DNA of 36,871 bases from Bacteroidaceae bacterium (lineage in GTDB: Bacteria > Bacteroidota > Bacteroidia > Bacteroidales > Bacteroidaceae): contig JAFSRW010000071.1 in assembly GCA_017445925.1 (NCBI GenBank), forward strand, positions 1-36,871, read 5' to 3'. The position numbers and the translations under genes were made by a program. The notes under the pieces were generated by a model. The model saw nothing but the letters and a program-made list of their open reading frames with translations. It was not told the DNA's origin and did not search any database. Numbering within the stretch: position 1 is the first letter of the stretch; each line of letters begins with the position of its first letter. Positions 2,955 through 17,102 of the stretch are shown here, piece after piece.

Positions 2955-3437
2955 TCACTCTTCACTCTTCATGTTTTTGAGTTGTTCACGGATTCTGAAC
3001 AGACGAACGCTGACATTCTTGGCTGTGATGCCCACTATCTGCCCTATCTCGTCGTACGAAAGATTCTCCAGCCACAGCAGGACGATGGCGCGGTCGAAGG
3101 GTTGCAACTTGGATATACGCCTATGCAGCATATCCACCTGACGCGTGTCCTCGTCGCGGTCCTCAAACAGATTGATGTTCATGTTCAACCTTTCCGTGGC
3201 CGTGCGGCGTTTCTTTCTGTCGTAAGAGATACAGGTGTTCAGGGCTATACGATAAACCCACGAGCGGATGTTACTACGGTTCTCAAAGCCCTCGAATCCG
3301 TTCCAAAGGTTTATCAGCACCTCCTGAAAGAGGTCGTTCACCTCGTCTTCGTCCTTCGAGAACATGTAGCACACCGTAAAGATAGTGTCTTTTTGTTCCT
3401 TCAGCGTTTCTTCAAACGTTCTTTCTAAATGGTCCAT
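2955..3437 (-). CDS. ECF-type RNA polymerase sigma factor (sigma-70 family)
   Basis: About 160 residues with both ECF domains. Region 2 includes DEVNDLFQEVLINLWNGF and the -10-recognition part RSNIRSWVYRIALNTCISY; region 4 is a helix-turn-helix, LSYDEIGQIVGITAKNVSVR. The upstream ATG at 3464 would add nine residues but lies only about seven bases from the start point expected from the TACCTTTG box at 3478-3485, so ATG 3437 (MDHLERTF) is preferred. The gene is followed at once by a membrane protein, the usual arrangement for membrane-regulated ECF factors. Its last residues (MKSEE) are encoded by a short tandem repeat. The targets are unknown. Confidence 0.92.
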   Translation of the reverse strand: MDHLERTFEETLKEQKDTIFTVCYMFSKDEDEVNDLFQEVLINLWNGFEGFENRSNIRSWVYRIALNTCISYDRKKRRTATERLNMNINLFEDRDEDTRQVDMLHRRISKLQPFDRAIVLLWLENLSYDEIGQIVGITAKNVSVRLFRIREQLKNMKSEE

Positions 3438-5831: not shown

Positions 5832-5863
5832 AGTGGTGTAAACAATCTTAAAGCTAAGAACAG

Positions 5864-5930
5864 ATAAGCCCCGCAAGATTTCTCCTGCTGGGGCTTTCTT
5901 ATTGTTAGCAAACCACCTTAATGGGACGTG
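5864..5930. terminator. Dispersed hairpin copy 3 with conserved tail
   Basis: AAGCCCCGCA-AGATTTCTCC-TGCTGGGGCTT (5865-5896), then TTCTTATTGTTAGCAAACC and ACCTTAATGGGACGTGG. The tail is identical to that at 7629-7660 up to the GGGACG array, which is cut short here. Confidence 0.85.
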
Positions 5931-5932
5931 GA

Positions 5933-7574: not shown

Positions 7575-7594
7575 TAATTTGGGTTATTTCTTCA

Positions 7595-7690
7595 AAAAAG
7601 CCCCGCAAGATTTCTCCTGCTGGGGGCTTTCTTATTGTTAGCAAACCACCTTAATGGGACGCGGGACGCTGGGACACTGGGACGTTTTAC
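7595..7690. repeat. Dispersed hairpin copy 4 with full tail and GGGACG array
   Basis: AAAGCCCCGCA-AGATTTCTCC-TGCTGGGGGCTTT, then TTATTGTTAGCAAACC, ACCTTAATGGGACGC and GGGACGCTGGGACACTGGGA. It lies between two divergent genes (7505 minus, 7803 plus) and so follows the stop of neither; it cannot be explained as a terminator of a neighbour. Confidence 0.85.
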
Positions 7691-13504: not shown

Positions 13505-14296
13505 ATGAAAACTTTGAAAAGTACACAAGCATTGAGAGTTGTTCTTGGACTGTTCCTGGCATTCGCCATGAGCGGCAAAATGTGGGCGCAAAGTAGTAAT
13601 TCACGCTTTTTGGCTGAGGGTGCCGTGCATGAGTATTTAGAGGAAGATAGGGTTCAGATGCGTGCGAACGCCTTTATCTATGAGGGGAAGTTTGAGGAAT
13701 ACCGAAAGTGGCAATTGCATATCAAGAAGGAAAGCCGGAAGATGGAGGTAGCGCATAAGAAGAAGATGAAAAAGATTAAGGATGAGGATGTGCGAGACAG
13801 TCTATACGAGGAATACAAACGTCAGCGTTACGACTTTGTTTACCAGCCATGCCCTTATCCTCAGCACGAATATGTGGTGATTATCCGCCCAACGCTCAAA
13901 CCTACTCGCGGCTTTGCGGTAGAGAAAGATAAGGTGGTTTATATGGATTATAATAAGTTAGAGTCAGGCCCTTTGAATATTTCTGCAACAGAAATCAGTG
14001 AAGATGTGTGCAAGGCTCTAAAAAGTCTGATGGACAATATTGTGGAATCTGCCAAACTCACGTATGACGGGCCCAAGGTCTTGGACGGCACCACCTACAG
14101 CATCATCGACGGGCATTTCCCCTGTTACATGGTTAAGAGTCATGGGGGCAGCAGAAACAACGAAGAAGGCGCAGCTTGCCGCTTGCTGGAGAAGCTTTCT
14201 GAGGCTGCCAAGCAGAAAGATGCTGCCACCATAAACGCACAGCTTGAGGAAATCAAACGCCTGGATGCCTTCTACAGCGCACTGAAGGTTAAGTAA
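13505..14296 (+). CDS. Secreted protein of unknown function, 263 residues
   Basis: ATG 13505 gives a proper signal peptide (MKTLKSTQALRVVLGLFLAF, cleavage near MWAQ at 27); the earlier in-frame ATG 13418 lies upstream of the likely promoter. The mature protein has a strongly charged helical region (about 75-110, HIKKESRKMEVAHKKKMKKI) and then a mixed region with HEYVVIIRPTLKP and YSIIDGHFPCYMV. The C-terminal tail EIKRLDAFYSALKVK is duplicated as a remnant at 482-535. No catalytic motif is recognised. Probably periplasmic or surface-located. Confidence 0.78.
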   Translation: MKTLKSTQALRVVLGLFLAFAMSGKMWAQSSNSRFLAEGAVHEYLEEDRVQMRANAFIYEGKFEEYRKWQLHIKKESRKMEVAHKKKMKKIKDEDVRDSLYEEYKRQRYDFVYQPCPYPQHEYVVIIRPTLKPTRGFAVEKDKVVYMDYNKLESGPLNISATEISEDVCKALKSLMDNIVESAKLTYDGPKVLDGTTYSIIDGHFPCYMVKSHGGSRNNEEGAACRLLEKLSEAAKQKDAATINAQLEEIKRLDAFYSALKVK

Positions 14297-14341
14297 AAAA
14301 CGTCCCACACGTCCCAGCGTCCCACGTCCCATTAAGGTGGT
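14288..14341 (-). repeat. GGGACG-type repeat, inverted copy
   Basis: Read on the minus strand: CCACCTTAATGGGACGTGGG, ACGCTGGGACGTGTGGGACG, TTTTTTAC. It directly follows the stop of the secreted-protein gene, as copy A does for the remnant tail. Confidence 0.8.
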
Positions 14342-14421
14342 TTGCAATTTTCTTTGTACTTTTGATGAACGTTTTCCGTTTAGCGGTGTATATCTTTATG
14401 AGAGCAGCTCTGAAATAGAGA

Positions 14422-15696: not shown

Positions 15697-15760
15697 TGTT
15701 GACCTGCGGTCGAGCCTGCTCACGCTAGCTAATCATTGCTCTCGCTCAATCGCAGTCTTC

Positions 15761-15788
15761 AATGTTCAATGTTCAATGATTAATGTTC
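15761..15788 (+). repeat. AATGTTC heptamer array containing the sigma-factor start codon
   Basis: Units begin at 15761, 15768, 15775 (AATGATT) and 15782. Each contains an ATG, in successive reading frames; only the ATG at 15776 is in frame with the sigma factor. Confidence 0.85.
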
Positions 15789-16408
15789 AATATTTTAAAC
15801 CCCTTTCAGCCCTCACGGACGAGGAGCTGATGCAGCGGGTAAGCAGCAAGGACGATGATAGGGCTTACGGCGAGCTCTACCATCGTCATGCTCGCAAACT
15901 GATGGGCTTCTTCTTCAGGCAGAGCGGTGGCGATGAAGCTTTGGCTGCCGACTTAACACAAGATACCTTTATGAGGGTGTGGACAGCGCGTAGCAAGTTT
16001 GCCACTTCGTTCTCGCGTTCCGCTCGCGACCCCTTCGGCGTTCAAGATTCAGGGTTCCGAACGTGGATGCTCACCATCGGGTATAACCTTGTAAAGAACC
16101 ATTACAGGCTTAGCGAACACCAGAAGCAATACGAGCAGTTTGTGGTGCAAACGGGAGAGGAAGTGGCTGAGAGCAACATCGTGGAACACCTCGATAATAA
16201 AGCCTTCGACCAAGCCCTGAAACAACATCTGGAGAAGATGCCGCCAGAGAGCCGTTTGCTTTTCTCGCTCAGATTCGAAGAAGAACTGACCGTTCCGCAG
16301 ATAGCCGTCGTAATGTCGGTACCAGAGGGAACGGTGAAGTCCCGACTACATATTCTAACCCAATCGTTAAAACAAAAATTCAACTATCATGATACAGTTC
16401 GAAGATAA
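15776..16408 (+). CDS. ECF sigma factor with a repeat-derived insertion
   Basis: A 210-residue ECF sigma factor. Region 2 is normal up to DLTQDTFMRVWTARSKF, then a non-family stretch (SFSRSARDPFGVQDSG, about residues 82-97) interrupts it before FRTWMLTIGYNLVKNHYR. Region 4 contains LTVPQIAVVMSVPEGTVKSR. The insertion is encoded by a palindromic DNA repeat (16005-16044) that recurs, inverted, in the next gene. The start codon lies in a heptamer repeat. It overlaps the next gene by 20 bp, the classic coupled sigma/anti-sigma arrangement. Whether the insertion, at the junction used for promoter melting, is tolerated is not known. Confidence 0.9.
   Translation: MINVQYFKPLSALTDEELMQRVSSKDDDRAYGELYHRHARKLMGFFFRQSGGDEALAADLTQDTFMRVWTARSKFATSFSRSARDPFGVQDSGFRTWMLTIGYNLVKNHYRLSEHQKQYEQFVVQTGEEVAESNIVEHLDNKAFDQALKQHLEKMPPESRLLFSLRFEEELTVPQIAVVMSVPEGTVKSRLHILTQSLKQKFNYHDTVRR
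16005..16044 (-). repeat. Palindromic repeat inside the sigma-factor gene
   Basis: The minus strand reads TTGAACGCCGAAGGGGTCGC, GAGCGGAACGCGAGAACGAA, G. It matches 16590-16630 on the plus strand at about 34 of 41 positions, including an uninterrupted core GCCGAAGGGGTCGCGAGC. It accounts for the extra residues in region 2. Confidence 0.85.
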
Positions 16409-16856
16409 ACTCCATGCATCGGCTCAGCGCCTTGCTGAGCAGGAAAACAAAGGCCTGCATGTGCCCCAGAATCCTATGCAGCAGAAACGTACCTATTGGG
16501 GATGGATAGCCACACCCGCAGCAGCTGTGGTGGGCATTATCTTTGGTATGACTTTGCCTTTGTTTGTCGAGAAGGAACAAAGTTCAATGTTCAACGCCGA
16601 AGGGGTCGCGAGCATTATGCGAGAACAAAGTGGCAATGTTCAATGTTCAATGAACAAAGATACCGTACGCGTTATAGAATCGGTACGCGACACGCTTTAC
16701 CTTACGCAAGTGGTGGAAAAGGAAAAGGTAATCTATAAGTCCCTTCCAACCCAGCAAACAGCAGAGGCGGCACCAAGGGATTCCGACTATCAGCCCGGCC
16801 AATGTACCTCCATCCAATGCGATGGTATCAACTATTCCGTTCTGGCAACGAACTGA
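16389..16856 (+). CDS. Putative single-span anti-sigma factor
   Basis: A 155-residue protein: cytoplasmic N-terminal ~35 residues (MIQFEDKLHASAQRLAEQEN), one membrane span (about 39-60, IATPAAAVVGIIFGMTLPLF), then a periplasmic part ending in CTSIQCDGINYSVLATN. Position and topology fit a small membrane anti-sigma factor of the sigma gene it overlaps by 20 bp, but the N-terminal part is short and has no zinc motif. A repeat (16590-16630) plus an AATGTTC array (16635-16651) encode residues 68-88 just outside the membrane, an inserted segment like that in the sigma factor. Confidence 0.75.
   Translation: MIQFEDKLHASAQRLAEQENKGLHVPQNPMQQKRTYWGWIATPAAAVVGIIFGMTLPLFVEKEQSSMFNAEGVASIMREQSGNVQCSMNKDTVRVIESVRDTLYLTQVVEKEKVIYKSLPTQQTAEAAPRDSDYQPGQCTSIQCDGINYSVLATN
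16590..16651 (+). repeat. Palindromic repeat plus AATGTTC heptamers inside the anti-sigma gene
   Basis: Core GCCGAAGGGGTCGCGAGC at 16595-16612, then GCGAGAACAAAG, and CAATGTTCAATGTTCAATG about 16634-16652. It is flanked on the left by a further GTTCAATGTTCAA. Frame is kept throughout. Confidence 0.85.
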
Positions 16857-16860
16857 AAAC

Positions 16861-17089
16861 TTACTTGCAGTATACCTTATATATTAGGGTGACGGGCTCC
16901 TTGTCCTTTTTGTGGATGACGCAGTCGATGGTCTTTACCCAACCATCGGGCTGGAAGGTGTAGGTGGCTTCCTCGGTGTACTCCTCTTCTGTGCCGTCCT
17001 TAATGTCTTTTCCGTTCAATGCCAGCGGGCTGATGGTGCCTTGAAAGTGTAACAAGCAATAGGATGCTCAAATAAAGGATTTTCTTCAT
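16861..17089 (-). pseudogene. Truncated paralogue of the 332-residue secreted protein
   Basis: ATG 17089 gives MKKILYLSILLLVTLS, close to the signal peptide of the protein at 4833-5831. The frame is then lost, and from 17055 another frame reads GTISPLALNGKDIKDGTEEE followed by TFQPDGWVKTI ... LIYKVYCK, matching the family's middle block and C-terminus. Relative to the full gene, about 170 codons are missing after the signal peptide and about 90 before the end. It is thus a doubly deleted, frameshifted copy. A -7 box (TAAATTTG, 17130-17137 minus) survives. Confidence 0.85.
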
Positions 17090-17102
17090 TTTCCGATTCG
17101 AT

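Follow-up and report, generated by a model that had tools for sequence, protein, structure and literature searches.

A short, probably mobile repeat associated with heptanucleotide arrays lies in frame in an ECF sigma-factor gene and its overlapping partner in a Bacteroidaceae bacterium

Two short segments, one inside an ECF sigma-factor gene and the other inside the overlapping partner gene, are probably copies of a single mobile repeat that enters heptanucleotide arrays after NNAA without a 7-bp target duplication and that is presumably moved in trans. Both lie in a 36,871-nt stretch (the window, by which we mean the whole stretch of DNA analysed; contig JAFSRW010000071.1 of GCA_017445925.1) from an assembly that is 84% complete and consists of 100 contigs (Table 1). 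The initial annotation of this DNA had reported the same repeat in opposite orientation in the two genes, keeping frame in each, and this is borne out by our analysis. The arms at 15999-16049 and 16586-16636 form an inverted pair of 51 nt with 86% complementarity, an 18-nt core is exact at 16022-16039 (-) and 16596-16613 (+), and both copies are intragenic and in frame. For comparison, shuffles of the window lead to an expectation of 0.01 core matches at up to 3 mismatches. The window pair is only mildly clustered, because the chance of any 2 of 11 random sites falling within 600 nt is 0.02.

Table 1. Repeat copies, flanking heptamers and genes in the analysed part of the window
Feature	Position	Strand	Remarks
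Second repeat family member TTGACCTGCGGTCGAG...CTCAATCGCAGTC	15699..15757	+	abuts heptamer array; between upstream gene and sigma start
TTCAATG heptamer array	15758..15794	+	contains first ATG of sigma ORF (15776); absent in G051 and G200
ECF sigma factor, 210 aa	15776..16408	+	residues 76-93 between KF and FRTW: 18 residues vs 4 in ten closest orthologues
Element copy 1	15999..16040	-	42 nt, short form, spacer GGAAC; inside sigma-factor gene; absent in 29 other sigma loci
Degenerate heptamer-like flank of copy 1	16041..16057	-	minus strand ends CCTGAATCTTGAA
Partner ORF, 155 aa	16389..16856	+	overlaps sigma gene; one hydrophobic segment
Heptamers GTTCAATGTTCAA	16582..16594	+	directly left of copy 2
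Element copy 2	16595..16636	+	42 nt, short form, spacer ATTAT; inside partner gene; absent in 13 partner orthologues
Heptamers TGTTCAATGTTCAATG	16637..16652	+	directly right of copy 2

The sigma protein of the window contains Sigma70 regions 2 and 4, with PF04542, PF08281 and TIGR02937 all above cut-off. An insertion of about 16 residues had been suggested for it; the insertion stands, and its size is revised to 14 residues (42 nt) relative to the ten closest orthologues, to 13 relative to eighteen others, which make up most of the rest, and to 11 relative to one far relative. Alignment with orthologues, which the initial annotation had proposed as a check, showed the insert to be missing from 29/29 other sigma loci, including three that belong to other families of the order, and from 13/13 partner orthologues, and in the material searched no orthologue had the same residues encoded by unrelated DNA. 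The insert position aligns with specificity loop L3 in an HMMER alignment with E. coli sigma-E (1OR7), a match to 4LUP was also obtained, and AF2 assigns pLDDT <50 to residues 79-91, which lie between two helices. The available text of one source describes L3 as the specificity loop of ECF factors (PMC8103513). Judging from the alignment and the predicted structure, the sigma insert falls where ECF factors have this loop, and it is possible that it changes the promoter choice of the sigma factor.

The partner ORF matches no Pfam or NCBIfam family. Its added residues had been placed just after a membrane span, and this position is correct: the copy lies in a variable linker directly after the hydrophobic segment. 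A clean insertion, on the other hand, is not what the alignments give, since about 90 nt of the window replace some 36 nt of G051 and G200, with a net gain of 54 nt (18 residues) over G051. Between ~16090 and 17100, identity of the window to G051 is 87-100% (100% at 16133 to 16552), but 62% around copy 2, and upstream of ~16090 the 60-base windows are only 68-92% identical. Copy 1 lies near the left edge of this tract of high identity (16090-17100 of the window against G051 and G200). Recombination between lineages likely explains the tract next to divergent upstream DNA, and the history of the partner insert is therefore clouded.

A genome search for the core had been proposed as well, and the core does recur, with many of the copies being intragenic. 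In the window's own genome it is found at 10 places with up to 2 mismatches (0 for a reversed-pattern control), while DNA search and profile search each yield 11 full copies. Together with related loci, these gave a family set of 54 distinct copies, for which the orthologous copies L048 and L130 were counted once and at least 30 nt of flank was required. The element consensus is C-GCCGAAGGGGTCGCGAGC-NNNNN-GCGAGAACGAAGTGGCAA, with a short form of 42 nt and a long form of 74-75 nt that has an additional internal 33-nt segment; copies in the own genome read C-GCC...GGCAA with minor changes. Leaving the leading C uncounted, the short form is represented by 39 copies of 41 nt and 2 of 40 nt, and the long form by 11 copies of 74 nt and 2 of 73 nt. 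The 41-nt copies are nearly invariant except for five central positions, where 17 different 5-mers occur. Conservation at element positions 1-18 and 24-30 is partly forced, because the loci from named genomes were retrieved by an exact pattern at these positions; other sources account for only 10 of the 39 copies of 41 nt, and several of these 10 were retrieved with the same core. The sequence to the left of the element is NNAA in 53/54 copies (AGAA 19, TGAA 17, TCAA 15, CCAA 1, TTAA 1 and AGGA 1), the base after this left target is C in 53/54, and the right end of the element, GCAA, resembles the left target. No longer relative with the same ends was found in the own genome, where a right-end search (<=1 mismatch) returned 14 places, namely the 11 known copies and 3 stray matches (4 for the reversed control).

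The description of the repeat as palindromic found no support. As single-stranded DNA, the 42-nt short form has no stronger fold than its dinucleotide shuffles (z +0.57) and the fold of the long form depends on the spacer (z -1.91 with one, +0.07 with another), so that palindromicity is not borne out; the inverted repeat seen in the window consists of two copies in opposite orientation. As to terminal inverted repeats, the two halves of the element look loosely inverted, but only by eye.

Most copies are surrounded by heptanucleotide repeats, which are absent from the initial annotation. 7-bp direct repeats (<=1 mismatch) are present on both sides in 34/54 copies (null mean 7.2, maximum 15 in 1000 shuffles), and TGTTCAA is such a repeat, exact, across copy 2; in 8/54 copies the two sides differ at 4 or more of the 7 positions. 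Autocorrelation of the flanks is high for lag 7 (0.457) and lag 14 (0.368), the remaining lags from 3 to 15 giving 0.23-0.28, and the heptamer phase continues through the element (0.656 vs 0.18-0.30). The heptamer words vary by locus (e.g., TTGAGAA, TGTTCAA, TTATGAA and TGGTCAA), while the core hardly does. Two copies from another genus (L234 and L239) are without heptamers. The window as a whole is rich in such duplications, with 19 exact tandem 7-mer duplications vs 1.8 expected (maximum 4 in 20 resamples); 6-mers (20 vs 7) and 8-mers (8 vs 1) are raised as well, and 5-mers (25 vs 30) are not. As a separate observation, the start of a peptidase gene (L050 and its orthologues L200, L201, L204 and L205) is occupied by heptamer arrays with differing words in five genomes, and the gene in G008 (L203) has none.

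Sister genomes have empty sites for two other copies. For the copy on C49, which is intergenic and in front of a gene, the joined flanks align gap-free over 99 nt to G200, G143 and G051 (95-97%). For the copy on C22, which lies close to the beginning of a peptidase C1-like gene, by eye within its signal peptide, they align gap-free over 100 nt to G123 (83%) and G200 (85%). The C49 alleles of G045 and G123 and the C22 alleles of G143, G051 and G008 show further gaps or do not align through. At both loci the empty alleles already carry heptamers and the inserted length is exactly 41 or 42 nt; insertion was therefore precise and without a 7-bp duplication, and a 2-bp AA duplication is indistinguishable from none. 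A 7-bp target duplication had been our first idea from the exact flanking heptamers, and it was rejected on the basis of these empty sites. The element thus entered pre-existing heptanucleotide arrays precisely at two loci, once between genes and once inside a gene. Such earlier arrays are seen at C49 and C22 but are not shown for either copy in the window, because the partner site is a replacement and the sigma orthologues have no heptamer at the site.

The core (<=1 mismatch) is present in 16/200 genomes, the own genome included, compared with 1 match, in G057, for the reversed control. Eight of these 16 genomes, all of the same genus, have the whole element, and the other eight, which are without the right half, were dropped. 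A profile search of 399 genomes of the family gave 10 positives, among them G384 (L236, partial), which was rejected by eye, and G316, which has a diverged variant; the same search of 393 genomes of the order was positive for the own genome alone. Among named genomes, the exact pattern retrieved 37 stretches, all from records named Prevotella, Prevotellaceae, Bacteroidaceae or Bacteroidales. A ruminant gut source is named in 13 of the 37 stretch titles, and two stretches come from one viral-collection contig. Overall, the element belongs to Prevotella-like gut bacteria.

Many copies lie in genes. A codon-usage score applied to both sides was coding in 14/41 short and 0/13 long copies (p = 0.013). 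A looser, hand-picked list adds 20 further host ORFs, some of which fail the codon score, including a second sigma factor (L114) and an MFS protein (L151). Pfam matches above cut-off were obtained for 14 of the 20 ORFs scanned: GH95, GH127, GH31, GH97, GH20 domain 2, alpha-galactosidase, two CotH, peptidase U32, ABC transporter ATPase, MFS transporter, peptidase C1-like, reverse transcriptase and the second ECF sigma factor. L120 is methyltransferase-like below the Pfam cut-off, L140 has one match below it, and the Pfam scan gave no match for L119, L143, L146 and L150. In L114, an ECF sigma gene of another species or genome, the element lies between regions 2 and 4, and in L158, on the viral-collection contig, it lies within the reverse transcriptase ORF. 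The length of the short form, 42 nt, is divisible by 3, and copies in genes extend the protein by about 14 residues, in frame; proteins can be lengthened by the element without being broken. Genic copies are read in several frames and on both strands, and all six frames are open in 38% of composition shuffles as well. The insert therefore lacks the look of a selected peptide, and selection for stop-free frames was rejected on the strength of the shuffles.

Other short repeats were noticed in the same material. A second family (TTGACCTGCGGTCGAGCCTGCTCACGCTCGG...CTCTCGCTCAATCGCAGCC), more abundant than the element and often beside heptamer arrays, is represented in the window (Table 1), in L044 (4826-4932), in L179, L174, L181 and L175, and in others; a match resembling it (7 mismatches) lies near a RAYT-like gene of G000. 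A third short hairpin, GGCGGCTTTGCCGC or GGCGGCTATGCCGC, is found within TTGAGAA-type heptamers in L046 (just before the element at 3008) and in an intergenic stretch of L120, where it occupies the place of the element in G051. Abundant A+T-rich repeats, promoter- or leader-like by eye, stand beside genes in several genomes, including L050 downstream of the element (2329-2416 of the aligned query) and the flanks of RAYT-like genes in L268 and L273. The window holds other dispersed repeats as well (443-527, 7641-7688 and 14243-14345; 2242-2306, 5857-5931 and 7593-7664), some of them with TGGGACG-type heptamers.

We propose that the element would be non-autonomous and that an enzyme acting in trans would move it, with insertion after NNAA and no target duplication. 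IS200/IS605-type HUH systems insert 3' of a short motif without target duplication, the end of the element resembling the target, and HUH enzymes use hairpins. An IS200/IS605- or RAYT-type HUH enzyme would be a candidate, since it would fit both the insertion rule and the right end GCAA. A search of G000 with PF01797 gave no match at E 0.001; the sole weak match (L264, E 0.025) is kinase-like by eye and not credible as a Y1 transposase. A RAYT-like family, mostly of 380-440 aa, was found in G000 by protein search, and its ORFs have what we take, by eye, to be HUH and tyrosine motifs. RAYT-like ORFs are present in 12/15 element-bearing vs 13/25 element-free genomes (p = 0.10). A closer subfamily (~70% identity or more, fragments counted) is present in 6/9 element-bearing genomes (eight of the genus plus G200) vs 1/25 element-free genomes (p = 0.0004, for a class drawn after seeing the data). 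No convincing copy of the element was found beside RAYT/HUH-like genes in 9 HUH-like and 8 RAYT-like stretches (partly the same genes; 1-1.5 kb per side); near the RAYT-like gene of L270 there is one chance-like right-half match with 4 mismatches. RAYT-like HUH genes are named here as a lead for the mobiliser. Genic copies, for their part, would most likely be tolerated by-products of insertion into variable loops.

Several other readings of these data need to be weighed against movement in trans. The element could be a REPIN-like substrate of a RAYT-like HUH transposase of the 380-440 aa family (e.g., G045:C16), that is, part of a RAYT/REP system proper. The occurrence of RAYT-like ORFs given above, particularly of the closer subfamily, and insertion without target duplication agree with this. 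But a different repeat, not the element, adjoins the genes inspected, such as the closer-subfamily genes of G143 and G200, and G000 has the closer subfamily only as a 28-residue remnant with a stop. In addition, the element folds weakly and none of the 54 copies has GTAG, CTAC or CGTC at either end (GACG is at the left in 2/54 and at the right in 0), and on balance we think this reading unlikely. Spread without a transposase is an equally tentative proposition: ectopic gene conversion or microhomology-driven template switching might copy the element from one heptamer array to another, with the heptamers acting as homology arms. Most copies do sit in such arrays, and element and heptamers are duplicated together in tandem in G051. 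Moreover, the left flanks of own-genome copies are alike past the first heptamer (identity of the second heptamer 0.55 vs 0.37 on the right), which keeps gene conversion between arrays a rival, and the 13-nt left flank CCTGAATCTTGAA of copy 1 also precedes the copies on C23 and C84, which suggests that flanks may move with the element. Against this, at C49 and C22 the flanks of filled and empty sites are the same, with no co-transferred units, and the words of the arrays are locus-specific while the core is not.

It is quite doubtful that the inserts have been domesticated, i.e., kept for changing sigma promoter choice through loop L3 and the linker of the partner. The position of the sigma insert and the copy between regions 2 and 4 of a second ECF sigma gene in another species would fit such a role, but the proteins struck are unrelated (glycosidases, transporters, reverse transcriptase, a signal-peptide-like stretch) and several frames are used, which argues for tolerance rather than selection. 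An assembly or binning artefact might be suspected in an 84% complete assembly of 100 contigs, but it is extremely improbable, since both inserts are in frame with differing spacers, the family recurs in many independently assembled records, and the flanks match those of sister genomes. A broader reading, which we put forward as speculation with a limited chance of being right, is that in these bacteria one insertion system might let several unrelated short G+C-rich cores (the element, the TTGACCTGCGG...GCAGCC family and the GGCGGCTNTGCCGC hairpin) land in heptanucleotide microsatellites, genic arrays serving as ports for ready-made 14-residue modules, also in the sigma promoter-specificity loop. 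By eye, and on one strand, the three core families start with TTG, and TTCA- or TCAA-type heptamers adjoin their other end.

Intragenic short repeats (Rickettsia, REP families), repeats that add residues, and heptamer repeats are known, and the combination seen here was not found in the literature searched; that literature, with subscription papers outside its scope, has no report of this element family or of insertion into heptamer arrays in Prevotella. Among heptamer repeats, the TAACTGA repeats of Beggiatoaceae, Cyanobacteria and five Bacteroidetes are, in the available text, likewise abundant 7-nt direct repeats near genes, whose possible mobility is discussed with no evident mechanism (PMC4679880), but they consist of one fixed word, whereas here many locus-specific words surround an inserted element. 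The BrickBuilt MITE of Porphyromonas gingivalis is also a small non-autonomous Bacteroidales repeat tied to a tandem repeat; as far as the available account goes, it holds 23-nt repeats inside itself and is always intergenic (PMC4596501), whereas the 7-nt array lies outside the present element and genic copies are common. The element also differs from MITEs in that target-site duplication is missing at the two empty sites, save for a possible 2-bp AA. GTAG/CGTC REPs are, in the accessible part of their description, repeats of 20-40 bp, some of them intragenic, with CGTC types found in Bacteroidetes among other phyla and having no dedicated transposase (PMC3733652). The element shares this size class and its partial location within genes, and differs in its terminal tetranucleotides, as well as in not being found beside RAYT-like genes (1-1.5 kb per side), whereas GTAG-type REPs flank a RAYT gene. 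Insertion 3' of NNAA without target duplication and an end resembling the target are shared with IS200/IS605-type HUH elements, but the fold is weak where that system needs hairpins, and the RAYT-like genes present are non-adjacent.

The Rickettsia palindromic elements, to which the initial annotation had likened the repeat, are a good analogy. In both cases short dispersed repeats lie in frame within unrelated protein genes and add residues to them, and to this extent the likeness holds; it does not extend to size, frames, heptamer tie or palindromicity. The Rickettsia elements are, in the available text, ~150 bp with a conserved encoded peptide (PMC10969869), whereas the present element measures 42 or 74-75 nt, uses several reading frames, lies for the most part within heptamer arrays, and in its short form is no more palindromic than shuffles. 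The link with heptanucleotide arrays offers a possible reason why some loops take up inserts, and the host proteins include assayable enzymes and a sigma factor hit at a loop that is swappable between ECF factors. Rickettsia provides the best-documented cases of short repeats adding segments to proteins, and the present family is compact and countable, with precise empty sites in sister genomes.
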